NCBI RefSeq assembly: GCF_022637455.1
Contig: NZ_CP093341.1
Location: forward strand, 992,001-1,056,000
DNA length: 64,000 nucleotides
Direction: 5' to 3'
Origin: Lysobacter sp. S4-A87
Lineage (GTDB): Bacteria; Pseudomonadota; Gammaproteobacteria; Xanthomonadales; Xanthomonadaceae
Part shown: piece by piece, positions 364 to 21,576 of the stretch
Layout of the letters: every line of letters begins with the position of its first letter
Position numbering within the stretch: position 1 is the first letter of the stretch
Notes under the pieces: generated by a model
The model's input: only the letters and a program-made list of their open reading frames with translations
Databases searched by the model: none
What the model was told of the DNA's origin: nothing
Program-made: the position numbers and the translations under genes

Positions 364-676
364 CCGACACCCCGCGCCGTGTTGAATCCCCGTGCCATCT
401 GTTCCCCCTGCCCGGCCTTGCGCCAGCTCACTGTCGATCACGACTACCCTCAACGCGGGAGCGCACGTGCTCAGGCCAAGTCGCCCATGGCGGGCCGCTT
501 GCGGCACCTTCGCGTCGCCCGCGCGTCCTGTTCCGGCCCCGCTGCGCGTTATCTGCTGCGAGGCCGGATATCACCACCGTGATGTCGCCTCCCACAGGGG
601 CCACCATGCGCGAACGCCAGCACAGCCATCCGTCCACGCCTTCGCGCGGCGCGTGCCGCGTCGGCGCCTGAGCACC
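364..676. other. Intergenic region, nothing recognised
   Basis: About 310 bases separate the leftward phosphopantetheinyl transferase from the rightward sugar dehydrogenase, so both promoters should lie here. I see no convincing -35/-10 pair, terminator or conserved RNA. A short open frame at 606-671 has no supporting composition or ribosome binding site and is not called. Confidence 0.4.
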
Positions 677-2104
<1,428 letters not shown>

Positions 2105-2156
2105 CATCGCCCGCCCATTCCAACCCTTCCCCCACCCCTTTCGGAGATCCACCGCG

Positions 2157-3197
2157 ATGAAGGTCCTCGTTACCGGCACGGCCGGATTCATCGGCTCGCA
2201 TGTCGCGCTGGAACTGCTGCGGCGCGGTGACGAAGTGGTGGGATTCGACAACCTCAACAACTATTACGACGTCGGCCTGAAGAAGGCGCGGCTGGCGCGC
2301 TTCATCAGCCACCCGCGCTACACGCACCTGCATGCCGACCTGGCCGACCGCGACGCCGTCGAGGCCGCGTTTGAGCGCCATCGTCCGCAGCGGGTGGTGC
2401 ACCTGGCCGCGCAGGCGGGCGTGCGCTACGCAGCGGAGAATCCGCACGTCTACATCAACAGCAACGTCACCGGTTTCCTGCACGTGCTGGAAGGTTGTCG
2501 CCGCCACACCAGCGAGCACCTGGTATTCGCGTCGACCAGTTCGGTCTACGGCGCGAATACGTCGATGCCCTTCTCCGAGCACCAGCCGACCGAACACCCG
2601 TTGACGCTCTATGCGGCGACGAAGAAGGCGAACGAACAGATGGCGCACAGCTACGCGCATCTGTACGCGATCCCGAGCACGGGCCTGCGCTTCTTCACCG
2701 TCTACGGCCCCTGGGGACGTCCGGACATGGCGCTGTTCCTGTTCACCAAGGCCATCCTGGCAGGCGAACCGGTGCCGGTGTTCAACCATGGCCGGCACAA
2801 GCGCAGCTTCACCTACATCGACGACATCGTCGCCGGCGTGGTGCGCGCCCTGGACCGGATCCCGACGCCCGACGATGGTTGGCGCGGCGAATCGCCGGAC
2901 CCGGCCAGCAGCGGCGTCGCGCCGTACCGCCTGTACAACATCGGCAGCCGCGAGAGCGTGGAGCTGCTGCGCTACATCGAAGTGCTGGAGCAATGCCTGG
3001 GACGCAAGGCCACGCTGCAGATGCTGCCGCTGCAGGCCGGCGACGTCCCGTCGACCGAAGCCGATTGCAGCGACCTCGCGCACGACATGGGCTACAGCCC
3101 GCAGTTCACGGTCGAGGAAGGCGTGGAGAATTTCGTGCGCTGGTATCGCGACTACTACCACCTCGGCGCAGCAGTACCAGCACGCCAATACGCCTGA
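2157..3197 (+). CDS. NAD-dependent UDP-glucuronate/UDP-hexosaminuronate 4-epimerase
   Basis: 346-residue short-chain dehydrogenase/reductase of the extended epimerase class. It has the NAD-binding motif TGTAGFIGSH at residues 7-16, a serine-rich catalytic stretch FASTSSVYG, and the YxxxK pair in YAATKK. The signature TVYGPWGRPDMALFLFTKAI and the KRSFTYIDDIV block are typical of CapI/Gla-like UDP-glucuronate 4-epimerases, which invert C4 of the uronic acid. The ATG at 2157 follows GGAGATCC. The gene starts 52 nt after the sugar dehydrogenase, so the two probably act in sequence: oxidation at C6, then epimerisation at C4. The preferred sugar (GlcA, GlcNAcA or GalNAcA) cannot be read from sequence. 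Confidence 0.88.
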   Translation: MKVLVTGTAGFIGSHVALELLRRGDEVVGFDNLNNYYDVGLKKARLARFISHPRYTHLHADLADRDAVEAAFERHRPQRVVHLAAQAGVRYAAENPHVYINSNVTGFLHVLEGCRRHTSEHLVFASTSSVYGANTSMPFSEHQPTEHPLTLYAATKKANEQMAHSYAHLYAIPSTGLRFFTVYGPWGRPDMALFLFTKAILAGEPVPVFNHGRHKRSFTYIDDIVAGVVRALDRIPTPDDGWRGESPDPASSGVAPYRLYNIGSRESVELLRYIEVLEQCLGRKATLQMLPLQAGDVPSTEADCSDLAHDMGYSPQFTVEEGVENFVRWYRDYYHLGAAVPARQYA

Positions 3198-3200
3198 CAC

Positions 3201-3241
3201 AAAGCAAAAGGGCCGATGGTTTCCCATCGGCCCTTCGCTTT
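3201..3241. terminator. Bidirectional intrinsic terminator
   Basis: A perfect 10-bp stem GGGCCGATGG/CCATCGGCCC (3210-3219, 3224-3233) with a 4-nt loop is flanked by complementary A- and T-rich tracts. It can end the rightward sugar operon and, on the other strand, the leftward tRNA-Arg transcript. Confidence 0.85.
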
Positions 3242-3247
3242 CTTGTG

Positions 3248-3324
3248 TGGCGCGCCCGGAGAGATTCGAACTCCCGACCACCAAGTTCGTAGCCTGGTGC
3301 TCTATCCAGCTGAGCTACGGGCGC
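3248..3324 (-). tRNA. tRNA-Arg(ACG)
   Basis: 77-nt cloverleaf on the minus strand with encoded CCA. The acceptor arms GCGCCCG and CGGGCGC pair fully, the D-arm reads AGCTCAGCTGGATAGAGC, and the T-arm contains GTTCGAATC. The anticodon loop CTACGAA gives anticodon ACG, which is normally edited to ICG and reads CGU, CGC and CGA. It lies downstream of csrA and tRNA-Ser(GCT), as argV follows serV in Escherichia coli. Confidence 0.95.
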
Positions 3325-3335
3325 TGAGTTGAAAA

Positions 3336-3364
3336 ATTATGACGGGTCGATTTCGATTCGTCAA
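3336..3364 (-). promoter_or_regulatory. Sigma-70 promoter of tRNA-Arg
   Basis: On the minus strand TTGACG (3364-3359) and CATAAT (3341-3336) are separated by exactly 17 nt. The -10 ends 11 nt before the mature 5' end of the tRNA. This is the best promoter by consensus in the window. Confidence 0.8.
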
Positions 3365-3552
3365 ACATTTTTCGAACATTTTCCTGTCGATTGCCTCGCT
3401 CATTGCGAGGGTCTTCAGGACCACGAAACACCCGGAGGAGTTTCGTGATTGGCGAAGTCCGCGGTTCCGGGCATCGCATGGAGCCATCCATGTCGACGCG
3501 TTCTCAGGAGGTGCATTGCACTACCTGCGGAACCCGGCCCCGCCGGAAAAAC

Positions 3553-3645
3553 TGGCGGAGACTGAGGGATTCGAACCCTCGATGGAGCTTTTGACCCCAT
3601 ACTCCCTTAGCAGGGGAGCCCCTTCGGCCTCTCGGGCAAGTCTCC
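3553..3645 (-). tRNA. tRNA-Ser(GCT)
   Basis: 93-nt tRNA with the long variable arm typical of serine tRNAs and encoded CCA. The acceptor stem GGAGACT pairs with AGTCTCC. The anticodon stem CTCCC/GGGAG encloses loop CTGCTAA, so the anticodon is GCT, reading AGC and AGU. It follows csrA on the same strand, matching the csrA-serV order of enterobacteria. Confidence 0.95.
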
Positions 3646-3674
3646 GCGACAAACTCAATTCGGCGCGGGCGCAA

Positions 3675-3703
3675 AGCATAACGGCTCGCCCCGCGCACGG
3701 CAA
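3675..3703 (-). promoter_or_regulatory. Probable sigma-70 promoter of tRNA-Ser
   Basis: On the minus strand TTGCCG (3703-3698) and TATGCT (3680-3675) have 17-nt spacing. They lie between the csrA stop codon and the tRNA, so the tRNA can be transcribed independently of csrA. Confidence 0.6.
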
Positions 3704-3713
3704 ACAATTTGTG

Positions 3714-3917
3714 TCAGCCGTCGGTGCTCTTGCCCGCATCGTCAGCGGGTTCTTCGCCGCGCTGGATTCGCTGGTAGATCTCTTCGCGGTGCACAGCGAC
3801 ATCTTTCGGTGCGGTAATTCCGATACGCACCTGGTTGCCCTTGACGCCGAGCACGGTGACAGTCACCGAGTCGCCGATCATCAGGGTCTCACCGACGCGA
3901 CGCGTCAGGATCAGCAT
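3714..3917 (-). CDS. csrA: Carbon storage regulator CsrA/RsmA
   Basis: 67-residue RNA-binding global regulator. It opens [16 protein letters not shown] and continues through [11 protein letters not shown] and HREEIYQRI, the canonical CsrA core. The homodimer binds GGA motifs in 5' leaders and controls translation and stability of mRNAs for carbon storage, motility, biofilm and virulence factors. The conserved N-terminal Leu4 and Arg7 and the C-terminal Arg of the RNA-binding face are present. The tail after residue 50 ([13 protein letters not shown]) is acidic and unconserved. An AGGAGA ribosome binding site precedes the ATG. It follows alaS on the same strand with a 138-nt gap, as in E. coli. 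Confidence 0.97.
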
Positions 3918-4055
3918 CTAACATCTCCTATGGCCGGCAGGTCCGCCGCCGGCAAATGGACGCTCCCGGGAGCGCCTCCAGTTCTGTACACAAACGTGAA
4001 CCATATTAGCGGCCGGTCAAACGTGACCGCAACCGCAGAAGGTCATGTTTCTCGT

Positions 4056-6704
<2,649 letters not shown>

Positions 6705-6946
6705 GCCTGCGCGCGGAGTCAGTGACCGGACTGGGCGGACCGGCCCATGTCCCTCACGATGGGGACGTCGACAGGAGCAGGCAACCCAGGACCCGAAAGC
6801 CGGTTAGGTTAACAGGACCGCGCAAGCTCTGCGCGAAGGCCCGGGAACCCCTGGCCGGTGCCTGGCAGCGGCTGCGCGGATGCGTCGATCAGTACCAGCA
6901 TCTACGAAAAGTTCGCCGGTGTGTGCCATCCGGCTCGGCAGCCGGG

Positions 6947-7510
6947 TCAGTCGTCCGGATCGAAACGGGTGGCGGCGCGCACGCTGGCGCCGTCGAAGCC
7001 CCGACGCATCAGGAAATCCGCGGCCTTGCGCCGCAGGTTCAATTCTTCGGTCACCCCGGGGCCGAACCGGCGCTGGACCAGCTCACGGGCGTTCTCGGCC
7101 CAGTCGCCCTCATAGGTCTCCATCGCCCGGGCGACGGCCTCGCGGTCCAGCCCGTGGGTGACCAGTTCGGCGCGGATCCGGACCGGCCCGTAGCCACTGC
7201 CGGCACGGCCACGGACCAGGCTTTCGGCGAAACGCTTGTCGTCCTGCCAGCCCTCGCCTGCCAGACGGCCCACGGCCGCCTCGACCTGCCCGGCATCCAG
7301 TCCGCGCGAGGTCAGCTTGCGACTCAGTTCCTTGCGCGAATGCTCGCGCCGGGCCAGCAGGCCCAGCGCTCGCTGCAACGGCGTCTGCTCCGGGCGCCCG
7401 CGGCGACGGGCTGGGCCGGGGCCGGCGCCGGGGTCGGCGCCGATACCGTCGCGGTCACCGGCCCCGGACCCGATGCCCGGTGCGTCATCGTCTGGCGAGT
7501 CGCCGTGCAT
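6947..7510 (-). CDS. recX: RecA regulatory protein RecX
   Basis: 187-residue RecX family protein, a modulator that binds within the RecA filament groove and limits its extension and its strand-exchange and co-protease activities. The three-helix repeats are visible: [20 protein letters not shown], then [22 protein letters not shown], then the C-terminal [13 protein letters not shown]. The first 40 residues are a Gly/Asp/Pro-rich low-complexity tail and may be unstructured. The gene begins 27 nt after the recA stop, so the two are probably co-transcribed with translation of recX kept low. Confidence 0.93.
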
Positions 7511-7537
7511 CGACGCCTACCCTTCCCTTGCGGTCCG

Positions 7538-8578
<1,041 letters not shown>

Positions 8579-8745
8579 CGTGGATTCCTTGAGGTCTGGT
8601 TGGCGTGTTGACGGCATTCGTGTTGGGGACAACTTAGGCTTGGCAGGTCGCACGGACTGAGACTCCCGTGGATGGACTGCAAATCTGTTCGATCAGGGAA
8701 CCGGTGGGCATTGGCGCACTCCAAAGCGGATGGTGGGGAAAGGCC

Positions 8746-8757
8746 GCACCGCGGTGC
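8746..8757. repeat. 12-bp perfect palindrome between lexA and recA
   Basis: GCACCGCGGTGC lies about 30 nt after the lexA stop codon. It has no T-tract, so it is a weak candidate for a terminator or an attenuating hairpin between lexA and recA. Confidence 0.4.
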
Positions 8758-8788
8758 TGGAACACCCCGCTCCGGGTCATGAAAAAGT

Positions 8789-9457
8789 TCATCGGTTCGG
8801 CCTCACCAGCCCGCAGTACAGGCCTTCGATGGCGAAATCCTGGTCGGGCTCGACCTCGATCGGCGCGTAGTCCGGGTTGCGCGGCAGCAGGCGGATGCGG
8901 TCCTTGCCGATCTTGAGCAGCTTTACGGTGATCTCGTCGTCGATGCGGGCGACCACGATCTGCCCCGAGCGCGCGTCACGGGTGCGGTGCACGCCGATCA
9001 GGTCGCCGTTGAAGATGCCTTCGTCGCGCATCGAGTCGCCCTTGACCTTGAGCAGGTAGTCGGGCGTCGGCGAGAAGAACACGCGGTCGAGCAGGACGAA
9101 ATCGTCGGAGCCGATGTCGGCACCGATCGGCCGGCCGGCGGCGACCTGCCCCAGCACCGGCAGCCGCAGGGCATCGTCGGAGACGGCGGCGGGGTCGGCG
9201 GCAGGGTCCACGGCCTGGACGGCAACCGTGTCGGCCACCTCCGCCACCGGCGCCACCAGGCGGATGCCGCGGGCCCGGCCCGGCATGCGCTGGATCGCGC
9301 CGGCCTGCTCGAGCGCCTCGAGGTGGTACTGGGCCGCACGCACGCTGCTGAAGCCCATGGCGCGGGCGATCTCGGTCTGCGAAGGCGGCACGCCCTCGGC
9401 TTCGATCCGCTCGGCGATCAGGGTGAGGATGGCGCGCTGGGTGCTGGTGATGTCCAT
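8789..9457 (-). CDS. lexA: SOS repressor LexA
   Basis: 222-residue repressor and autoprotease. The N-terminal winged helix-turn-helix spans roughly residues 1-65, with recognition segment EIARAMGFSSVRAAQYHLEA. The self-cleavage bond Ala107-Gly108 is in VAAGRP. The serine-lysine dyad is Ser142 (KGDSMRDEG) and Lys179 (EITVKLLK). The start is taken as ATG 9457, because the upstream TTG at 9466 lies inside the operator. RecA filaments trigger cleavage and release the SOS genes. The operator at 9457-9475 indicates autoregulation. Its position immediately at the start codon means either a leaderless transcript or a promoter overlapped by the operator. Confidence 0.96.
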   Translation of the reverse strand: MDITSTQRAILTLIAERIEAEGVPPSQTEIARAMGFSSVRAAQYHLEALEQAGAIQRMPGRARGIRLVAPVAEVADTVAVQAVDPAADPAAVSDDALRLPVLGQVAAGRPIGADIGSDDFVLLDRVFFSPTPDYLLKVKGDSMRDEGIFNGDLIGVHRTRDARSGQIVVARIDDEITVKLLKIGKDRIRLLPRNPDYAPIEVEPDQDFAIEGLYCGLVRPNR

Positions 9458-9475
9458 TAGTAGCAATACTACTAA
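9457..9475. promoter_or_regulatory. LexA operator (SOS box, Xanthomonadales type)
   Basis: TTAGTAGCAATACTACTAA is a near-perfect palindrome and fits exactly the TTAG-N6-TACTA site established for Xylella and Xanthomonas LexA rather than the E. coli CTGT-N8-ACAG box. It abuts and shares one base with the lexA start codon, so bound LexA would block its own transcription. Confidence 0.9.
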
Positions 9476-9521
9476 CAGGCTTTTCCCGCCGTCAACCCCC
9501 TGCCCGCCCTGCCTTGCGCCC

Positions 9522-10022
9522 TCAGGCCATCAGCTCGACCAGCCCGTGCAGGGCCGCGGCCACGGTCTGCCGGCGCACGTCGTCGCGGTCGCCGTCGAAA
9601 TGGAAGGTCACTGCGGTCGGGTAACCGCCACGCCGCTTCCAGGCGATCCAGACCGTGCCGACCGGCTTGTCCTCGGTTCCGCCACCGGGTCCGGCGATGC
9701 CGGTCACGGCGACCGCCAGCGTCGCGCCGGAATGCACGAGCGCGCCGGAGACCATCTCGATCACCGTGTCGCGGCTGACCGCGCCGTGCTGTTCGAGCGT
9801 TTGCGGGCGCACGCCCAGCAACGCCTGCTTGGCCTCGTAGCTGTACGCCGCCATGCCCGCCTCGAACCAGTTCGAGGAGCCGGGGATGTCGGTCAGCATC
9901 TTGGCGATCCAGCCGCCGGTGCAGCTTTCGGCGGTGACCAGGGTCTGGCGGTGGTTGCGGGCCGCTTCGCCCACCTGCTCGGCGAGGCGATGCAGGGCGG
10001 CATCGGAGACGTCGTTTTTCAT
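9522..10022 (-). CDS. pncC: Nicotinamide-nucleotide amidohydrolase, CinA C-terminal domain type
   Basis: 166-residue stand-alone CinA C-terminal domain. It deamidates nicotinamide mononucleotide to nicotinate mononucleotide, recycling pyridine nucleotides formed for example by NAD-dependent DNA ligase. Signature motifs are VTAESCTGGWIAKMLT and VTGIAGPGGGTEDKPVGTVW. The ATG at 10022 gives MKNDVSDAAL; the longer upstream frame has no family similarity. In E. coli the homologue (ygaD) also lies next to recA; here lexA is inserted between them. Confidence 0.93.
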   Translation of the reverse strand: MKNDVSDAALHRLAEQVGEAARNHRQTLVTAESCTGGWIAKMLTDIPGSSNWFEAGMAAYSYEAKQALLGVRPQTLEQHGAVSRDTVIEMVSGALVHSGATLAVAVTGIAGPGGGTEDKPVGTVWIAWKRRGGYPTAVTFHFDGDRDDVRRQTVAAALHGLVELMA

Positions 10023-10054
10023 GCGCGCATCATAGCCGCAAGCGAAGCGGCAAT

Positions 10055-10082
10055 CCCCTCTCCCGCGAACGCGGGAGAGGGG
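10055..10082. repeat. REP-like palindrome (CCCCTCTCCCGCG family)
   Basis: A 13-bp perfect stem CCCCTCTCCCGCG/CGCGGGAGAGGGG with a 2-nt loop lies between the TonB receptor stop and pncC. The same core recurs at 50149-50174, so this is a dispersed intergenic repeat. It can also form a strong transcript 3'-end hairpin. Confidence 0.8.
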
Positions 10083-10094
10083 CCACATCTGCGA

Positions 10095-12713
10095 TCAGTA
10101 CAGGATCCGCAACGTCATGCCGTAGGTGCGCGGCGCGCCGAGGAATCCGTTGAACGAGTTGAACGGATTGTTCGGCGCCGGCGACACGTTCTGCAGCGGC
10201 GCGTCGAAGCCGACCTGGACATAGTCCTCGTCGGTGAGGTTCAGCGCCCACAGCTCGACCATCCAGTTCCTGTTCTGCTTGCCGATGCCGATGCGTGCAT
10301 TGACCACGGTGAAGCCGTCCTGGACCTTCTCCACGTCCAGGTCCGAGCCGGTGTTGTACTCGGACATGTACTTGGCGCCGAGGTTGAAGCGCGCCAACAG
10401 GTCGCCGGCGAACGGATAGTCGTAGGTCACCGAGGCCGATGTCGACCAGTACGGGGCGAAGCTCACCCGGCTGCCCGGCAGCTTGTACAGCGCGCCCGTG
10501 GGCGCGACGAAATCGCCGCCGGGAATGTTGTCGCCGTAACGGGTGTCTGCATAGGTCACGCCACCCTGCACCATGAGCCCGCGAGTGGCCTGCCACAGCA
10601 CCTCGGTGTCGATGCCCTTGGAGATCACTTCGGGAATCGAGCGCACCACGAAGCTGGTGCCGAGGAAGCTGTTGAGCTGGAAGTCCTCGTAGGTCTGGTG
10701 GAACAGCGTGGCGTTGAGCAGCAGGTTGCCTTCGTCCCAGGTGGTCTTGGCGCCGAGCTCGTAGCTGTCGACGAACTCGCCCGGGAACGAGGTGTCGTTG
10801 ACCGGCAGGATGCCCGAGCCGCCACTGGACAGGCCGGTGTTGGACTGCACGCGGTCGAGGTTGAAGCCGCCGGCCTTGTAGCCGCGTGCGGCCGAGGCGT
10901 AGCCCATCCAGTGCTCGTTCCAGCGGTACGCCGCCTTGAGCGTGCCGGACCATTCCTTCTCATCGCTTTCCTGGTGGGTGACGCGGCCGTTGTGCAGCGG
11001 ATTGGCCCACGGCAGGCAGGAGAAGCCGATCACCTGCGGGATCACCGTCGGCAACGCCGCCTGCGGGACGCCGCGCGCCAGCAGCGCCGCCGCCACGCGT
11101 TGCTGCCCGCCCGGTCCGAGCATCGCCGAGCAGCCGGGGCTGCCATTGGGATTGCTGTAGGCCGAATCGAGCTCCTTCTCCTCGCGGGTGTAGCGCAGGC
11201 CCAGGGTCAGGTCCAGCGCATCGGTCGCGTGCCAGGTGTTGTTGGTGAAGATCGCCGCACTCTTGGCGTTCTGCTTGTAGACGTCGTCGGCACCGAAGCC
11301 GGCGAACACCGTGCCGAACGGCCGGCCGCTCGCCTGCGACAGGAACAGCGGCGCGGTCGGGCTGCGCCCCAGTGCCGGGTTGATCATCGACAGCAGCGCC
11401 ACCGACAGGTAAGGCTCGTAGGCATTGCCGATGCGGTAGGTCTCGTTGCGATCGAGGTCTTCGTCGGAATAGAACAGCCCGACCATCCAGTCGATGCTGT
11501 CGCTGGCGCCGGTCAGGCGGAATTCCTGGGTGAAGGTCTCGAAGCCGGTCAGCGACTCGTCTTCCTCGCCGTTGCGGTAGAGGATGTCGGCGCTGCTGAA
11601 GTCGAAGTCCAGGCCATTGATCGAATCCCACTCGCGCCAGGCGGTGATCGAGGTCAGCGTCGCCCCGTCGAACCACGGCGTGATCCAGTTGACCTCGGCG
11701 GCGACACCCTTGTCCTTGATGTCCTGCTTGGTGCTGCGGTTGCTCCAGGCCACGCGTGCGAACGGATCGGCCACTGGCGCCACGCCTTCGTCCGGCGACA
11801 GGGCGTTGACGATGTCGCCGGTCGCGCCGCGCACCGTGGTCACGCCGACGCAGCAGTTTTCCTCGCGACTGGTGAAGTCGGCGATGAAATTGATGTCGAG
11901 GTTGTCGGTCGGCTCCAGCAACAGCTGGCCGCGCAGGGTGTGGAAATTCTGGTCGCCGTCGTCGGTCTCCACGCGCGGGCCGGCGCCGGTGTGCACGTCG
12001 GTGAATCCGTCGCGCTTGCGCTTGGCGGCGTAGACACGGAACGCTGCCATGTCGCTGATCGGCACATTGAGCGAGCCGGCGACACCGACCGCGTTGTAGT
12101 TGCCGACCGTCAGCTCGCCTTCGACCTGGGTGAGGTAATGCGGGCGCTTGGTGATCACGTTGATCACGCCTGCGGAGGTGTTCTTGCCGAACACGGTGCC
12201 CTGCGGCCCCTTCAGCACTTCGATGCGCTCGATCTCGCCGAGGTCGCCGAAGCCGACGCCGTTGCGCGGCCGGTACACGCCGTCGATGACCACGCCGACC
12301 GACGATTCCAGGCCGGCGTTGTCGCCGACCGTGCCGATGCCGCGGATGCGTGCGGTGGTCTGGGCTTCGCTCTGGGTGCTGGTGACGGTCAGGCCGGGCA
12401 CCAGCACCTGCAGGTCCTTGACGTCACGAACGCCGGTGTCCTGCAGCAACTGCTCGGGCAAGGCGGTGATGGCGATCGGCACGTCCTGCAGCGCTTCCTC
12501 GCGCTTCTGCGCCGTGACCGTCAATCCAGCCAGCGTGGTCGGTTCTTCATCCTTCTTCAGCTCGCCGCCCTGCAGGACCGGGGCCGCTGCAGCCTCCTGG
12601 GCCTGGACCGACCAGACTGGCGTCGCGAGCGTCGTCGCGATCGCGAGCGCAAGCAGCTTCCTGGTCACGTTCTTTGTGGTGCCCACTGAAATAACTGGCT
12701 TGCACGAAACCAT
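10095..12713 (-). CDS. TonB-dependent outer-membrane receptor
   Basis: 872-residue outer-membrane receptor that imports a ligand with energy from TonB-ExbBD. A signal peptide covers about the first 35 residues (KLLALAIATTLATPVWSVQA). A TonB-box-like LTVTAQKREEALQDVPIAI follows, then the plug domain (VPGLTVTSTQSEAQTTARIRG, VIDGVYRPRNGVGFGDL). A 22-strand barrel follows, ending TLRILY with an aromatic last residue. The start at 12713 is preceded by GGGAGGGGAC. There is no partner regulator, FecR-like protein or hydrolase beside it. It resembles the large xanthomonad family of TonB receptors implicated in uptake of siderophores, vitamins or plant-derived sugars. The ligand is unknown. Confidence 0.92.
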   Translation of the reverse strand: MVSCKPVISVGTTKNVTRKLLALAIATTLATPVWSVQAQEAAAAPVLQGGELKKDEEPTTLAGLTVTAQKREEALQDVPIAITALPEQLLQDTGVRDVKDLQVLVPGLTVTSTQSEAQTTARIRGIGTVGDNAGLESSVGVVIDGVYRPRNGVGFGDLGEIERIEVLKGPQGTVFGKNTSAGVINVITKRPHYLTQVEGELTVGNYNAVGVAGSLNVPISDMAAFRVYAAKRKRDGFTDVHTGAGPRVETDDGDQNFHTLRGQLLLEPTDNLDINFIADFTSREENCCVGVTTVRGATGDIVNALSPDEGVAPVADPFARVAWSNRSTKQDIKDKGVAAEVNWITPWFDGATLTSITAWREWDSINGLDFDFSSADILYRNGEEDESLTGFETFTQEFRLTGASDSIDWMVGLFYSDEDLDRNETYRIGNAYEPYLSVALLSMINPALGRSPTAPLFLSQASGRPFGTVFAGFGADDVYKQNAKSAAIFTNNTWHATDALDLTLGLRYTREEKELDSAYSNPNGSPGCSAMLGPGGQQRVAAALLARGVPQAALPTVIPQVIGFSCLPWANPLHNGRVTHQESDEKEWSGTLKAAYRWNEHWMGYASAARGYKAGGFNLDRVQSNTGLSSGGSGILPVNDTSFPGEFVDSYELGAKTTWDEGNLLLNATLFHQTYEDFQLNSFLGTSFVVRSIPEVISKGIDTEVLWQATRGLMVQGGVTYADTRYGDNIPGGDFVAPTGALYKLPGSRVSFAPYWSTSASVTYDYPFAGDLLARFNLGAKYMSEYNTGSDLDVEKVQDGFTVVNARIGIGKQNRNWMVELWALNLTDEDYVQVGFDAPLQNVSPAPNNPFNSFNGFLGAPRTYGMTLRILY

Positions 12714-13042
12714 CGCGTCCCCTCCCCTCGAGTAATTGGATGTACGGCGTCCTGACCCAACAGCCAATGCACACGCCCCCTTTTGGCGCGACCGGCGACA
12801 CCCCCACCCAACGCAACACGGTCCCGATGGGCATACGGCAGCGAACGGCAACGGAAACGTAACATGTCCTTCGGACAGGCAATGTGGCAGTGCAGCAGGG
12901 AGTGGGGCGCGGCCGGCCAGCGAGCACGGATTCGCCCTGCAGGCAACGGGGTCCCGAATCCGCCCACGGCTGATAGCCTAGCGACCTCCCTCGCCGGCCC
13001 CCTGCGCCGGCCCTCCCGCACGCATACGAAGATCCACGATCC
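12714..13042. other. Divergent intergenic region, TonB receptor / mutS
   Basis: 329 bases between divergent genes. It must hold both promoters. I see a weak TTGGCT-N17-TACATC pair on the minus strand and a small hairpin TGTCC/GGACA at 12865-12877, but no confident operator. Composition is like the surroundings. Confidence 0.4.
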
Positions 13043-15619
<2,577 letters not shown>

Positions 15620-15683
15620 GTCCGCACTGCCACTCTGCGACCACATCGCTACACTAGGTCGCAGAACGGGGACAGGGGTGGTC

Positions 15684-18600
15684 ATGGAGCTTTGGTGGTT
15701 CGCGGGCGGCGCGTGCGTCGCCCTGGCGGTTCGTTTCTTGTTTGGCATCCGGCGCACGCCGCCGGCGGTACCTGCCCCCTCGACCACCGTCGATGCGATG
15801 CCCGACGTCGCGTCTGGCACGGCGACCGATCCCCCCGCGGCCGCGAGCGAGGCACCGGCCGATCGCCTGCATCGCCTGAAGCTGGAACTGGAAGCACAGG
15901 ACGATCGCATCCAGCGCCCGGCCGACCTGGCCGCGCTGCCTGCGTTCGACGAAGGCGTGCGACTGCTGGCCGGCAGTGATTTCAGCGCCGAGGACCTGAC
16001 CAATGCCCTCACCAGCCCCGGCTACGTGCTGCCTTCCATGGCCGCCGCGGCGCTGCGGTCGCGGCCGGATGTCAGCATCGACGCCGCCGTGGCGGCGGCC
16101 CCGAGCCTCGGCGGCTTCGCCCTGCAATTCCTGCTGGCGCACTTGCAGGCCCAGCCCGATGCGGCCGCCCTGCCGCAATTGATGCGGCACGCCCGCGACT
16201 GGTGGTGGGATTTCCAGCCCTGCCGCCTGCGCTTGCGCGACTACCTGCGCTGGGCCGACGCCCACGCCGCCGCGCACGCCACGGTGGCGCCGCTCGACGA
16301 CCTCGACGAGGACGCACTGGAGAAACTGCGCCAGGTCCTGGAGAAGTTCCAGGAGCCGGCACTGGGCGCGGTCCTGGCCCGGGTCGATGCGGACCTGGCG
16401 CTGCGACGCGAACGCCGCGTGCTCAGCGGTTTCGGCCGGGTGATGTCACGCCCGACCGAACGGCGCCGGATCGATCACACCGAGCTGGACCAGAACTGGC
16501 AGCGCCTGCATGACCTGAGCGCCGGCCAGGAACCAACCTCGGTGCTGGTGGTGGGCGAGTCCGGCGTCGGCAAGACCACGCTGATCGACCGCCTCGTCGA
16601 TGGCCTGCTTGGCGAGGGCTGGCTGGTGTTCGAAGCCTCCGCCGCGGAGATCCTGGCCGGGCAGAAGTACATCGGCGAACTCGAGCAGCGCGTGCGCGAA
16701 ATGCTCGGCGTCATGCACCGCAAGCGCGCGTTGTGGCGCGTGCCGGACTTCTTCGACCTGCTGAACAAGGGCAGCCACGACCGCGATCCGCGCGGCATCC
16801 TCGACCTGCTGATGCCGGCGGTGGAGCGTGGCGAGTTGCTGCTGGTCGGCGAACTCACGCCGCGCCAGCTGGCGCAGTTGCTGCTCGCCCGTCCAGCGGT
16901 CAAGCACCATTTCGACATCGTGCAGCTGCAACCCATCGCCGCACCCGTGCTCGGCGAGATCGCAAGCGGCTGGGCCGCGATGCAGGCACATCGCGCCGGC
17001 ACCGGCGTCGCCGACGCGGCGACCCTGGATGAAGCCGCGCGCATGGCCGCCCAGTACTTCCCCGAACAGCACGAACCCGGGCGCACGCTGCGCCTGCTCG
17101 AAGATGCTCTGTCGACCGCGACCGCGGCCGAACCGCCGCGCCTGCCCCTGGACGGCGAAGCGCTGCTGGCGGCGATCGCCAACCGCAGCGGCCTGCCGCT
17201 GGAAGTGCTGGACGACCGCCAGGTGCTCGATCTGGATACGTTGCGCGCGTTCTTCGGCCAGCGCGTGATTGGCCAGCACGAAGCGGTCGAATGCCTGATC
17301 GATCGCATCGCCATGCTCAAGTCCGGCCTGGTGGACAGTTCCCGGCCGGTCGGCGTGTTCCTGTTCGCCGGGCCCACCGGCACCGGCAAGACCGAAATGG
17401 CCAAGGCCCTGGGCGAACTCCTGTTCGGCAGCAGCGAGCGCCTGTTGCGCCTGGACATGAGCGAGTTCCAGTCCGAGGACTCCGCCTGGCGCCTGACCGC
17501 CGACGACGCCAACGGCAGCGCCCGCTCGCTGACCTCGATGATCCGCGCACAGCCATTCTCGGTAGTGCTGCTGGATGAGTTCGAGAAGGCCCACCCCAAG
17601 GTATGGGACCTGTTCCTGCAGGTTTTCGACGACGCCCGCCTCAGCGACCGCAGCGGCAACACGGCCGACTTCCGCCACAGCATCATCATCCTCACCAGCA
17701 ACGTCGGCTCGACCATTTCGCGCAGCGCCGGCCCTGGCTTCACCGCCTCCACGGCCGGCAGCTATTCGCGCAGCCACGTCGAGAAGGCGCTGTTCGAAAC
17801 GTTCCGGCGCGAGTTCCTCAACCGTCTAGACCGCATCGTCCTGTTCAACCCGCTCGATCGTTCGCTGATGCGCGAGATCCTGCACAAGGAGCTCAACCGC
17901 ACGCTGACCCGTCGCGGCCTGCGCAATCGCGACTGGGCGGTGGAATGGGAGCCGTCGGCGATCGAGTTCCTGCTCGACCGCGGTTTCACCCCGGACCTTG
18001 GCGCGCGCCCGCTGCGGCGCGCGATCGAGCACCACCTGCTGGCGCCATTGGCGCGCAGCATCGTCGAGCATCGCGCGCCGCACGGGGGGCAGTTCCTGTT
18101 CGTGCGCAGCGCCGGCGATCACCTCGACGTCCAGTTCATCGACCCGGACGAGGCCCCGGCCACTAGCGGAACTGCGGCGGCGAGCGGGCTTGCGCACGAT
18201 GCCGACCTGCGCGACCTGGTGTACCAGCCGTCGACCGGGCCGGACGCACGCGCCCGCCTGCTCGAACGGCTGCAGCAGTTGCAAAGCGCCGTCACCACGG
18301 ATGCGTGGATCCAGGCACGCGACGCTGATTTCTCGCGCATGGCCCACACCGACTTCTGGTCCGAACCGACGCGTTTCGACGTGCTCGACCGGATCGAGCG
18401 ACGCGACCGCATCGAAAGCGCGCTCGACAGCGCGCAGCGCCTCAGTGCCCGACTCGCCGGGGACGGCGGCAATGGCGAATTCGCCGCGCGCCTGACGCAG
18501 CTGCTGTTCCTGCTCGGCCTGGCGATCGACGCCGTGCTCGAGGGCCGCGCACAGGATGCCCTCATCGACATCAGCGCCAATGAATCCGACCTGCGTCGCG

Positions 18601-19022
18601 ATGGCGCGCAGACGCGGATCTGGTGGCAGCAGGTCCTGGCCATGTACCTGGAATGGGCGCAGCGCCGAAACATGCGGGTGGAAGTACTTGCGCAGGATGC
18701 GCAGCAGTGCAGCGCATGGCTGGCAGTCAGCGGCTTTGGCGCGCTCGACCTGCTCCAGGGCGAGGCCGGCCTGCACGTGATGGAGCAGGAGGCCGAAAAC
18801 CAGGCATCGCGTCGCATCGCGCTGCATGTCCAGGTCGCCGCCGATCTTCCGGGACAGGCACGCCGGCCACTGCGTCGGGATGCCGAGGACCGGCAAATCA
18901 GCCGGCGATACCGCTCCTCGCCCTCGCCGCTGGTGCGCGACACGGCGCGCGGCTGGCGCAGCGGCCGCCTCGACCGCGTGCTGTCGGGCGAGTTCGACGT
19001 CATCAGCGACAACAGCGGCTGA
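15684..19022 (+). CDS. Membrane-anchored double-AAA+ ATPase fused to a release-factor-2-like domain lacking GGQ
   Basis: 1112 residues. One transmembrane helix (about 4-22) is followed by a Pro/Ala linker and a helical repeat-like region (about 60-250). ClpB-like AAA1 has Walker A GESGVGKTT (291-299) and pore loop KYIGE (328-332), but VP stands where Walker B acidic residues are expected (about 353-354). AAA2 has Walker A GPTGTGKTE (563-571), Walker B VVLLDEFEKAHP (D631-E632), the arginine-finger region FLNRLDRI and sensor-2 GARPLRRAIE, but not the GYVG pore loop. Residues about 850-1112 align with bacterial RF2: FWSEP, MYLEWAQRRNMRVEVL, GEAGLH, then the C-terminal VRD..RG....LDRVLSGEFD. The GGQ hydrolysis domain is absent and the stop-codon tripeptide SPF is replaced. 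Start ATG 15684 follows AGGGG; a GTG at 15678 is the alternative. I infer an energy-dependent unfoldase or remodeller recruited to ribosomes or a membrane complex; function unknown. Confidence 0.85.
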   Translation: MELWWFAGGACVALAVRFLFGIRRTPPAVPAPSTTVDAMPDVASGTATDPPAAASEAPADRLHRLKLELEAQDDRIQRPADLAALPAFDEGVRLLAGSDFSAEDLTNALTSPGYVLPSMAAAALRSRPDVSIDAAVAAAPSLGGFALQFLLAHLQAQPDAAALPQLMRHARDWWWDFQPCRLRLRDYLRWADAHAAAHATVAPLDDLDEDALEKLRQVLEKFQEPALGAVLARVDADLALRRERRVLSGFGRVMSRPTERRRIDHTELDQNWQRLHDLSAGQEPTSVLVVGESGVGKTTLIDRLVDGLLGEGWLVFEASAAEILAGQKYIGELEQRVREMLGVMHRKRALWRVPDFFDLLNKGSHDRDPRGILDLLMPAVERGELLLVGELTPRQLAQLLLARPAVKHHFDIVQLQPIAAPVLGEIASGWAAMQAHRAGTGVADAATLDEAARMAAQYFPEQHEPGRTLRLLEDALSTATAAEPPRLPLDGEALLAAIANRSGLPLEVLDDRQVLDLDTLRAFFGQRVIGQHEAVECLIDRIAMLKSGLVDSSRPVGVFLFAGPTGTGKTEMAKALGELLFGSSERLLRLDMSEFQSEDSAWRLTADDANGSARSLTSMIRAQPFSVVLLDEFEKAHPKVWDLFLQVFDDARLSDRSGNTADFRHSIIILTSNVGSTISRSAGPGFTASTAGSYSRSHVEKALFETFRREFLNRLDRIVLFNPLDRSLMREILHKELNRTLTRRGLRNRDWAVEWEPSAIEFLLDRGFTPDLGARPLRRAIEHHLLAPLARSIVEHRAPHGGQFLFVRSAGDHLDVQFIDPDEAPATSGTAAASGLAHDADLRDLVYQPSTGPDARARLLERLQQLQSAVTTDAWIQARDADFSRMAHTDFWSEPTRFDVLDRIERRDRIESALDSAQRLSARLAGDGGNGEFAARLTQLLFLLGLAIDAVLEGRAQDALIDISANESDLRRDGAQTRIWWQQVLAMYLEWAQRRNMRVEVLAQDAQQCSAWLAVSGFGALDLLQGEAGLHVMEQEAENQASRRIALHVQVAADLPGQARRPLRRDAEDRQISRRYRSSPSPLVRDTARGWRSGRLDRVLSGEFDVISDNSG

Positions 19023-19192
19023 CTCGGGGGCCGGCAGGGGCGCAGAAATCCGGCCTGCCTTCGCCCTGGTTGGCCCCGTCGCTCTGCTGACATCTCAACA
19101 GTCGCGGCATGTAGACGCCGCGTGAACGCCTGAACGTTTACAACACCACTGCGCCCGCCACACGGTCGCGGTGCGATTGACCGTGCACGTCA

Positions 19193-19229
19193 ATAGCTTC
19201 CCCCTATCGGGTCATTCGCCAGAAACGAT
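19193..19229 (+). promoter_or_regulatory. Probable OxyR binding site upstream of catalase
   Basis: ATAG-N7-CTAT is exact at 19193-19207. The second half expected at 19215-19229 is degenerate (TTCG-N7-CGAT). The spacing fits the four-half-site OxyR consensus, and the position about 60 nt before the catalase start fits peroxide-induced activation. Confidence 0.6.
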
Positions 19230-19289
19230 TTTCCTTGATCGTTATTCCTCCTTAGCCTCGTAGCCACATCGCCAACGAAGGAACGCGCC

Positions 19290-20798
19290 ATGAGCAACAA
19301 CCCCACCGACAAGCCCGAAAAGACCCCGCTGACCACCGCCTTTGGCGCACCGGTGGTCGACAACCAGAACAGCATGACCGCCGGCCCGCGCGGCCCGGTC
19401 CTGATGCAGGACGTATGGCTGATCGAGAAGCTCGCCAACCTCAATCGCGAGATCATTCCCGAGCGCCGCATGCACGCCAAGGGTTCAGGCGCCTTCGGCA
19501 CCTTTACCGTCACAAACGACATCAGCAAGTACACGCGCGCGAAGATCTTCAGCGCCGTGGGCAAGAAAACCGAGATGTTCGCCCGCTTCACCACGGTCGC
19601 CGGCGAGCGTGGTGCCGCCGACGCCGAGCGCGACATCCGCGGCTTCGCCCTGAAGTTCTATACCGAGGAAGGCAACTGGGATCTGGTCGGCAACAACACG
19701 CCGGTGTTCTTCCTGCGTGACCCGCGCAAGTTCCCGGACCTCAACAAGGCGGTCAAGCGCGACCCGAAGACCAACATGCGCAGCGCGCGCAACAACTGGG
19801 ATTTCTGGACCAGCCTGCCCGAAGCGCTGCACCAGGTCACCATCGTCATGAGCGACCGCGGCATTCCGGCCAGCTATCGCCACATGCACGGCTTCGGCTC
19901 GCACACCTACAGCTTCATCAATGCCGCCAACGAGCGCTACTGGGTCAAGTTCCACCTCAAGACCCAGCAGGGCATCAAGAACCTGACCGATGCCGAAGCC
20001 GCGCAGATCGTCGGCAGCGATCGCGAAAGCCACCAGCGGGACCTGTTCGACGCGATCGAGCGTGCCGAATTCCCGAGGTGGACGATGTACATCCAGGTGA
20101 TGCCGGAAGCCGACGCCGAGAAGGTGCCCTACCACCCGTTCGACCTGACCAAGGTCTGGCCGAAGAAGGACTACCCGCTGATCGAAGTGGGCGTGATGGA
20201 GCTCAACCGCAATCCGGAGAACTTCTTCGCCGACGTCGAGCAGAGTGCGTTTGCTCCGAACAACCTGGTCCCGGGCATCAGCGTTTCGCCGGACAAGATG
20301 CTGCAGGCGCGCCTGTTCGCCTATTCCGACGCGCAGCGTTACCGGCTCGGCGTCAACCACCACCAGATCCCGGTCAATGCCGCACGCTGCCCGGTGCACA
20401 GCAACCACCGCGACGGCGCGATGCGCGTGGACGGCAACTACGGCGGCACCCTGCACTACGAACCCAACAGCTACCAGCAGTGGCAGGAGCAGCCCGAGTA
20501 CCGCGAGCCGCCGCTGAAGATCAATGGCAACGCCGATTTCTGGAACTTCCGCGAGGACGATGCCGACTACTACAAGCAACCCGGCGACCTGTTCCGGCTG
20601 ATGTCGCGCGAGCAGCAGCAGGTGCTGTTCGACAACACCGCCCGCGCGATGGGTGACGCGCCGGAGTTCATCAAGCTGCGCCACATCGGCAACTGCTCGA
20701 AGGCCGACCCGGCGTATGGCGCCGGCGTGGCGAAGGCACTGGGACTGGAATCGGCGGTGGCTGCACAGCGCAGCAACGAACCGATGGAAGCGGGCTGA
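19290..20798 (+). CDS. Monofunctional heme catalase, small-subunit (clade 3) type
   Basis: 502-residue catalase that splits hydrogen peroxide to water and oxygen. The distal histidine is in [13 protein letters not shown], the distal asparagine in [14 protein letters not shown], and the proximal heme-ligand tyrosine in [14 protein letters not shown]. Length, the absence of a C-terminal flavodoxin-like domain and the sequence place it with KatA-type clade 3 enzymes, which usually bind NADPH. There is no signal peptide, so it is cytoplasmic. GAAGGA precedes the ATG. An OxyR-like element upstream suggests induction by peroxide. A strong hairpin follows at 20821. Confidence 0.96.
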
Positions 20799-20820
20799 GG
20801 CGCCACGCCGTGCCCACCAC

Positions 20821-20843
20821 GAGGGGAGTCTGAGACTCCCCTC
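20821..20843 (+). terminator. Hairpin after the catalase gene
   Basis: Perfect 10-bp stem GAGGGGAGTC/GACTCCCCTC with a 3-nt loop, 22 nt after the catalase stop. No U-tract follows, so it may stabilise the mRNA end or act as a weak terminator. Confidence 0.6.
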
Positions 20844-20940
20844 GACGTCATCGGGCGAGGCGCGATGACGACTTCACACCATCACAGCCACTGAACGGCG
20901 CAGCGCTAGCATCGGAGCCCCACCCAAAGGACTGACAGAA

Positions 20941-21576
20941 ATGACCACTTCGTTGACCGATGATCTTCTCAACCAGCTGCAGGGACAGCCGCTGGCGCAG
21001 ATCGGACAACAACTCGGACTCTCGCCGTCGCAGGCCACCGGTGCCGTGTCTGCGGCGTTGCCCTTGCTGCTGGGCGCACTCGGTCGCAATGCCGGGCAGC
21101 CACAGGGCGCGCAGGCGCTGTACGGCGCGCTGGAACGCGATCACGCCAGCCTCGACCTCGGCAGTGTGCTCGGCTCGGTGATGGGCGGCGGCGGCGCTGG
21201 CGCAGGTGGCCAGATCCTCGGCCACATCTTTGGCGCGCGCCAGCAAGGTGCTGCGCAGGGACTCGGTGCCGCAACCGGGCTTGGCAGCAATCAGGCCGGC
21301 ACGTTGCTGCAGGTGCTTGCCCCGATCGTGATGGCCTATCTGGCCAAGCAGGTGTTCTCCAGCGGCGGCAACACGCTGGCCAGCCAGTTGCCGGCATCGC
21401 CGCAGTCGCTGGAGCAGGCGCTGGGCCAGGAACAGCAGACGATCACCCAGCAGGGTGGCGTCGGAGGCGGCCTGCTCGGTGCGGTGCTCGACCGTGATGG
21501 CGATGGCGACACCGACTTCTCCGACCTGATCGGACTGGCCGGTTCGATGATGGGCGGGAGCGAGCCGAGGCGCTGA
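20941..21576 (+). CDS. DUF937 domain-containing protein
   Basis: 211-residue protein of the DUF937 family. It has the family's helix-rich start (DDLLNQLQGQPLAQIGQQLG), a glycine-rich middle (GGGGAGAGGQILGHIFG) and an APIVMAYLAK helix. The C-terminus carries DRDGDGDTDFSDL, which looks like an EF-hand or dockerin calcium loop, though only one copy is present. There is no signal peptide. AAAGGA precedes the ATG. The molecular function of the family is not established. It stands alone between the catalase and HiPIP genes. Confidence 0.8.
   Translation: MTTSLTDDLLNQLQGQPLAQIGQQLGLSPSQATGAVSAALPLLLGALGRNAGQPQGAQALYGALERDHASLDLGSVLGSVMGGGGAGAGGQILGHIFGARQQGAAQGLGAATGLGSNQAGTLLQVLAPIVMAYLAKQVFSSGGNTLASQLPASPQSLEQALGQEQQTITQQGGVGGGLLGAVLDRDGDGDTDFSDLIGLAGSMMGGSEPRR

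Follow-up and report, generated by a model that had tools for sequence, protein, structure and literature searches.

A Clp-type AAA+ protein of Lysobacter sp. S4-A87 fused to a release factor 2-derived domain without the GGQ domain

A stretch of 64,000 nucleotides from Lysobacter sp. S4-A87 (NZ_CP093341.1, positions 992,001 to 1,056,000; referred to here as the window) was found to contain a gene which encodes, in a single uninterrupted and stop-free frame, a protein consisting, from the N-terminus to the C-terminus, of a membrane helix, a helical domain, two Hsp100/Clp-type AAA+ modules (D1 and D2) and a C-terminal domain homologous to release factor 2 (RF2). As a membrane-anchored Clp-type motor is joined here to an RF2 stripped of its releasing and stop-codon-reading parts, a protein of translation seems to have been taken over as a permanent arm of a different machine. 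The start codon is the ATG at 15684, with a GTG at 15678 as the alternative. An original prediction had described a frame of 1112 residues with a membrane anchor, two AAA+ modules and an RF2-like C-terminus, and this was borne out by Pfam, by profile-profile comparison and by predicted fold, and in the case of the anchor by hydropathy only. An Rfam search of window positions 13000-21000 returned no match and no sigma-70 promoter-like site was seen in 15400-19400. The coordinates of the features are given in Table 1.

Table 1. Features of the fusion gene and its protein (coordinates are positions in the window)
Feature	Residues	Coordinates	Strand	Basis
Complete gene, AAA+/pseudo-RF2 fusion protein	1112 aa	15684..19022	+	Single frame; fusion in 21 further genomes
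N-terminal membrane helix	3-21	15690..15746	+	Hydropathy in members with intact N terminus; model helix 3-19
All-helical N-terminal domain	58-248	15855..16427	+	AlphaFold2 model, pLDDT about 90 over most
D1 AAA+ module	266-480	16479..17123	+	Fold similar to D1 of ClpC/ClpA/ClpB; aligned to ClpA and ClpB of the genome
D1 Walker A, GESGVGKT	291-298	16554..16577	+	Aligned to the genome's ClpA and ClpB
D1 degenerate Walker B, ALWRVPDFFDLL, replacing LFIDE	349-360	16728..16763	+	Alignment
D2 AAA+ module and D2-small domain	491-808	17154..18107	+	AAA_2, ClpB_D2-small; motifs complete
Shortened D2 pore loop	604-614	17493..17525	+	No GYVG aromatic in any member with the region
PGF tripeptide at position of IGF ClpP-docking loop of own ClpA	684-686	17733..17741	+	Alignment
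RF2-derived C-terminal domain	838-1112	18195..19019	+	Pfam, profile-profile, predicted fold
RF domain-1-like helical part, FWSEP...VLDRIERRDRIE	850-957	18231..18554	+	hhalign from residue 876; Foldseek
RF domain 2/4 superdomain	958-1112	18555..19019	+	VIA-align to RF2 125-363, domain 3 skipped
Linker replacing GGQ domain and switch loop	1055-1071	18846..18896	+	VIA-align gap; most variable segment tested
End strand and final helix, RRY..PSPLVRD..RGWRSGRLDRVLSGEFD	1072-1105	18897..18998	+	Most conserved part of domain

The C-terminal domain is RF2 minus domain 3. The Pfam family PCRF was matched at residues 974-1043 with 26.8 bits (curated cut-off 24), one of three PCRF matches in the whole genome alongside RF1 and RF2, and each of the 21 family members examined matches it, the best with E 5.6e-10. 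Profile-profile comparison of the domain with ordinary RF2 gave a probability of 98 (E 2.5e-13 over 150 columns) and with RF1 an E-value of 2.1e-12, and a profile of 21 members found ordinary release-factor genes with E-values down to 8e-16 per genome. The last helix was found to match the RF2 C-terminal helix, in order, with a score of 22.1, which was reached by none of 100 column shuffles (maximum 16.9). The best PDB matches of an AlphaFold2 model of residues 838-1112 (four sequences, pLDDT 77.5) were RF2 (Foldseek E 7.5e-9); as the last 27 residues of this model are of low confidence, the assignment of the final helix rests on sequence and not on the model. Model residues 119-252 were superposed by VIA-align on RF2 125-363 (Z 13.7, 117 residues, 2.7 A), so that approximately 100 RF2 residues are skipped, where the GGQ domain sits. 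According to PMC6514570, the GGQ domain is inserted in the core of the domain which recognises stop codons, and its removal therefore leaves a closed fold. The original prediction of a C-terminal RF2 which lacks the GGQ domain and has SPF replaced agrees with these results, the GGQ columns being without counterpart and falling in the gap of the superposition; the profile search and structure prediction proposed with it placed PCRF above its cut-off and recovered the RF2 fold, and the contrary outcome, a domain unrelated to PCRF or RF2, did not occur.

Residues of 27 RF2 sequences were compared with those of the family, using the numbering of the RF2 frame from the same genome and, beyond the GLH motif, a pairing set by hand from motifs. 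At 23 of 128 near-invariant RF2 positions the RF2 residue was also the commonest in the family, and the fully kept core positions include W46, W143, M150, Y151, W154, G184, A187, L191, E194, G196, H198, R212 and D334. The residues of GGTE, SPF and HTS, the switch-loop tryptophan and GGQ were replaced or absent in the family, the columns for the stop-codon tripeptide (SPF or PxT) and for the GGTE helix tip being variable as well, and there was no RF-1 match (PF00472) in the fusion gene, the genome's three PF00472 matches all lying elsewhere. Judged by the residues compared, the RF2-derived arm is predicted neither to read stop codons nor to release peptides.

Mean entropy was 2.10 for the equivalent of the RF2 helix-5 tip, 1.96 for the equivalent of the SPF loop and 1.46 for the whole domain, and 8 and 14% of equally sized domain windows were as variable as the two decoding loops. 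The highest and lowest values in this comparison belonged to the linker in place of domain 3 (2.21) and to the end strand with the final helix (0.63), which is the most conserved stretch and in which the helix is basic and invariant (RGWR(S/T)GR). The variability of the decoding loops is the chief, though suggestive, evidence against docking in the decoding centre, and an RF2-derived binding arm is favoured over A-site decoding, as docking there would be expected to conserve these loops. Of the two uses put forward in the original prediction, recruitment of the ring to ribosomes and reuse of the release-factor fold as an adaptor, the latter fits these data better than docking in the decoding centre would.

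Genomes of the order (397 in total) were searched with a profile made from two members. The fusion was present in 22 of these, its own genome included, and a 23rd match was an ordinary release factor; in 19 of the 21 further genomes the frame was of about 1100 codons or more. One member (in G760) lies at a contig end. The member in G437 (L108, G437:C766:1-10000, 19-2990) is split near its start into frames 19-597 and 609-2990, which points to a frameshift or an assembly error in that genome. In a phylum-wide set of 398 genomes the fusion was found only in its own genome, G033 and G416, and the matches listed for 89 other genomes were short frames of ordinary release-factor size. The family spans at least ten genera of one order, with Lysobacter sp. 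Root916 and a Lysobacteraceae MAG among its named members, and the order of parts is constant throughout. Trees of the AAA+ and C-terminal parts agreed in their supported groups, as expected of one old fusion inherited as a unit. Seven pairs gave dN/dS values of 0.07-0.53 for the C-terminal domain and 0.007-0.17 for D2, indicating that both are under purifying selection. There was no match to the C-terminal domain in the plasmid and phage collections searched.

The absence of the fusion from other species of its genus is what would be seen if the frame were an artefact, that is, a frame error or an assembly chimaera of an AAA+ gene and a decayed prfB. This explanation was rejected, and its probability is negligible, as the same junction is present in 21 independent genomes of the order, most of them with full-length frames, and both the purifying selection and the compatible trees speak against it; the frame error joining two genes which had been envisaged in the original prediction did not materialise.

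Within its genus the gene was found in this species only (12 genomes), and in sister species the position immediately behind mutS is a clean empty site. In several genomes of the genus with sufficient flank, among them G010, whose MutS is 99% identical, the homology at the mutS end resumes at window positions 19078-19288, beyond the gene. The empty site spans window positions 15626-19077, and the other members of the genus are likewise without the gene. Since the gene also follows mutS in most other family members, the site is old, and the distribution points to loss or to recombinational replacement at a shared site. Across the 22 loci, mutS was found at 15 (the window included), with katG or katA, rplS-trmD-rimM and recA-lexA nearby; this is an ordinary mutS region with housekeeping genes, and no specific partner gene was found across the 22 loci that could serve as a functional clue. 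Ordinary RF1 and RF2 are retained in the genome, together with an ArfB-like gene whose 142-aa frame matches PF00472; the termination and rescue set thus looks ordinary, and termination is independent of the fusion protein.

A separate locus (L110, G032:C8:8000-27900) was observed to contain, at 537-18363 and in an operon-like arrangement, an SPFH-like gene, a gene for a DUF3686 ATPase of 1747 aa, three Clp-type AAA+ genes in tandem and one gene for a GDSL-type hydrolase. The first two AAA+ proteins have C-terminal segments which are faintly RF2-like (GEVGIH; SVAGFALAPLLAAETG). This triple AAA+ operon was considered as a relative of the RF2 fusion and rejected, as single-sequence comparison was not significant (E 0.02-0.6, probabilities under 3%). 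A relative of the C-terminal segment of the first AAA+ protein was found in one other genome of 250. DUF3686 ATPases adjoin SPFH-like genes, without AAA+ genes, at seven of seven Pseudomonadota loci (L119-L125), and blastp found no AAA+ genes like those of L110 within the stretches examined at seven DUF3686 loci. A search of the fusion's own genome for DUF3686 gave no match, the controls of the same search being equally silent.

The membrane anchor was called from hydropathy only and, because basic residues follow the helix, the rest of the protein is probably cytoplasmic. Residues 58-248 sit between this helix and D1, at the position occupied by Clp_N in Clp proteins; Clp_N was not among the best 25 of 46 Pfam matches for the fusion protein. 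The N-terminus plus D1 was folded as a separate model, and no structural relatives of residues 58-248 were found in the PDB, the matches of this model falling in D1. D1 itself matched the D1 fold of ClpC, ClpA and ClpB with Z up to 10.4. Alignment with the ClpA and ClpB of the same genome showed that D1 keeps its Walker A motif and a KYIGE pore loop and is without the Walker B acids and the arginine finger, from which it is probably not catalytic, binding nucleotide without hydrolysing it.

In D2, Pfam matches were obtained to AAA_2 at residues 554-717 (E 5e-40) and to ClpB_D2-small at residues 724-803, and the Walker A, Walker B (LLDE), arginine finger (FLNRLD) and sensor 2 (GARPLRR) motifs are conserved. 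Matches to the PADLOC models of the anti-phage defence ATPases DolB (1.4e-29) and PDC-M37B (2.8e-22) were confined to residues 516-676, the D2 AAA+ core. The GYVG aromatic is present in D2 of the genome's own ClpA and ClpB and is missing from D2 of the fusion family, which speaks against the usual threading of substrates through D2. Where ClpA has its IGF loop, with the docking-loop pattern [LIV]-G-[FL], all members with the region have a tripeptide, which is mostly PGF and in a few cases MGF, VGF or AGF, and which is lacking in the genome's own ClpB. This tripeptide would be in keeping with a protease-coupled unfoldase, in which the D2 loop docks ClpP and the RF arm picks clients for degradation; we regard such coupling as very improbable, however, as the first position is proline or alanine in most members and as D2 is without the aromatic pore loop used for client threading.

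From the computed architecture, homology, loss of RF residues, state of the AAA+ motifs and pattern of conservation, we infer a hexamer, its topology, a docking role for the arm, remodelling and each further functional step as follows. The protein would be a membrane-anchored AAA+ protein of Hsp100/Clp type, presumably forming a hexameric ring, with D2 as the putative ATP motor and D1 binding nucleotide, probably without hydrolysis. Its C-terminal arm would be an ancient copy of RF2 that has cleanly lost its catalytic GGQ domain, and would most likely dock through helical domain 1 and the conserved basic C-terminal strand and helix. The arm could thereby bring a specific partner to the ring, be it a client protein, an RNA or a complex bound to ribosomes at the inner membrane, and the ring would then remodel the partner so delivered. 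We give about an even chance to such a membrane-held, D2-powered assembly with an RF2-derived docking arm. It is consistent with the invariant fold core, the strong conservation of the end strand and helix, the complete D2 motifs and the purifying selection; the lack of a conserved partner gene nearby and the missing D2 pore-loop aromatic count against it.

Next in rank after the docking arm, as a tentative second choice, comes recruitment to ribosomes through a surface that does not involve the decoding loops, for which domain 1 and the C-terminal basic helix are candidates. In this reading the pseudo-RF2 arms would dock on stalled, hibernating or membrane-engaged ribosomes and the membrane-held, ATP-driven ring would pull on or dismantle something there. 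The parts of RF2 that remain include domain 1, which is described as GTPase-interacting in the release-factor account of PMC6514570, and the domain 2/4 fold, and with these retained ribosome binding could still be in use; the basic, invariant final helix and the membrane helix, seen in members whose N terminus is intact, point the same way. Against it, the family has lost the residues by which RF2 sits in the decoding centre, the corresponding loops belong to the most variable parts of the domain, and a family-specific translation gene is absent from the neighbourhood. Slightly more doubtful still is a membrane AAA+ machine which senses ribosomes through a permanently attached release factor without catalytic activity and whose targets are translation complexes that are stalled or engaged at the membrane; if true, it would amount to a translation quality-control route in which a pseudo-release factor serves as the sensor.

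Similar conservation would also be expected if the C-terminal domain had only a structural or regulatory part to play in the ring; it might in that case just cap or oligomerise the ring, or regulate it, without any external partner. The diverged D2 pore loop and degenerate D1, with which the assembly as a whole has departed from the ClpB mode, are compatible with such a module, and a C-terminal location beside D2-small would suit inter-subunit packing; a complete two-domain RF fold nevertheless exceeds what a cap needs, and conservation peaks in one strand and helix and is not evenly spread, so that this role is considered unlikely.

Discussion of release factors usually centres on the GGQ domain. 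The fusion is the opposite case, in which everything but GGQ has been kept and built into an AAA+ motor as a fixed part, and the codon-recognition fold can thus survive without decoding. The fusion offers a tractable route to other binding partners of this fold and may connect Clp-type remodelling with the inner membrane and with translation.

The architecture was compared with known systems. A literature search, with subscription journals mostly outside its range, found no description of an AAA+/RF fusion. A precedent for a repurposed RF2 is plastid PrfB3 of land plants, reported in PMC5897788 as an RF2 relative which is devoid of SPF and GGQ and shields the ends of petB mRNA; with it the fusion shares descent from RF2, the loss of both motifs and a role elsewhere; PrfB3 is, however, a plastid RNA stability factor, and an AAA+ part goes unmentioned in that account. 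The census of the bacterial release-factor superfamily in section 2.4 of PMC6514570 comprises RF1/RF2, ArfB and PrfH. ArfB and PrfH, though of the same superfamily as the fusion's RF2 part, both retain the catalytic GGQ domain, whereas the fusion keeps the other RF domains instead. Domain 1, the domain 2/4 fold and core residues are shared with RF2 (PrfB), from which the fusion differs in being without domain 3, GGQ, SPF, GGTE and the switch-loop tryptophan and in forming part of a 1112-residue AAA+ protein. The double AAA+ arrangement, the homologous D2 with D2-small and the D1 fold are those of Hsp100/Clp proteins (ClpA, ClpB, ClpC). The NCBIfam equivalog and exception models for ClpA, ClpB, ClpV, ClpK and ClpG all scored far below cut-off, with ClpB (TIGR03346, E 2.9e-83) at 280.7 against an equivalog cut-off of 1232.1 and ClpA (TIGR02639, E 1.9e-76) at 257.8 against 993.15. 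The differences from Hsp100/Clp proteins lie in the N-terminal membrane helix and helical domain, the loss of the D1 Walker B and arginine finger and of the D2 pore-loop aromatic, and the RF2-derived C-terminal domain. The fusion is an Hsp100-class protein with a pseudo-release-factor domain, a known class in a new form.
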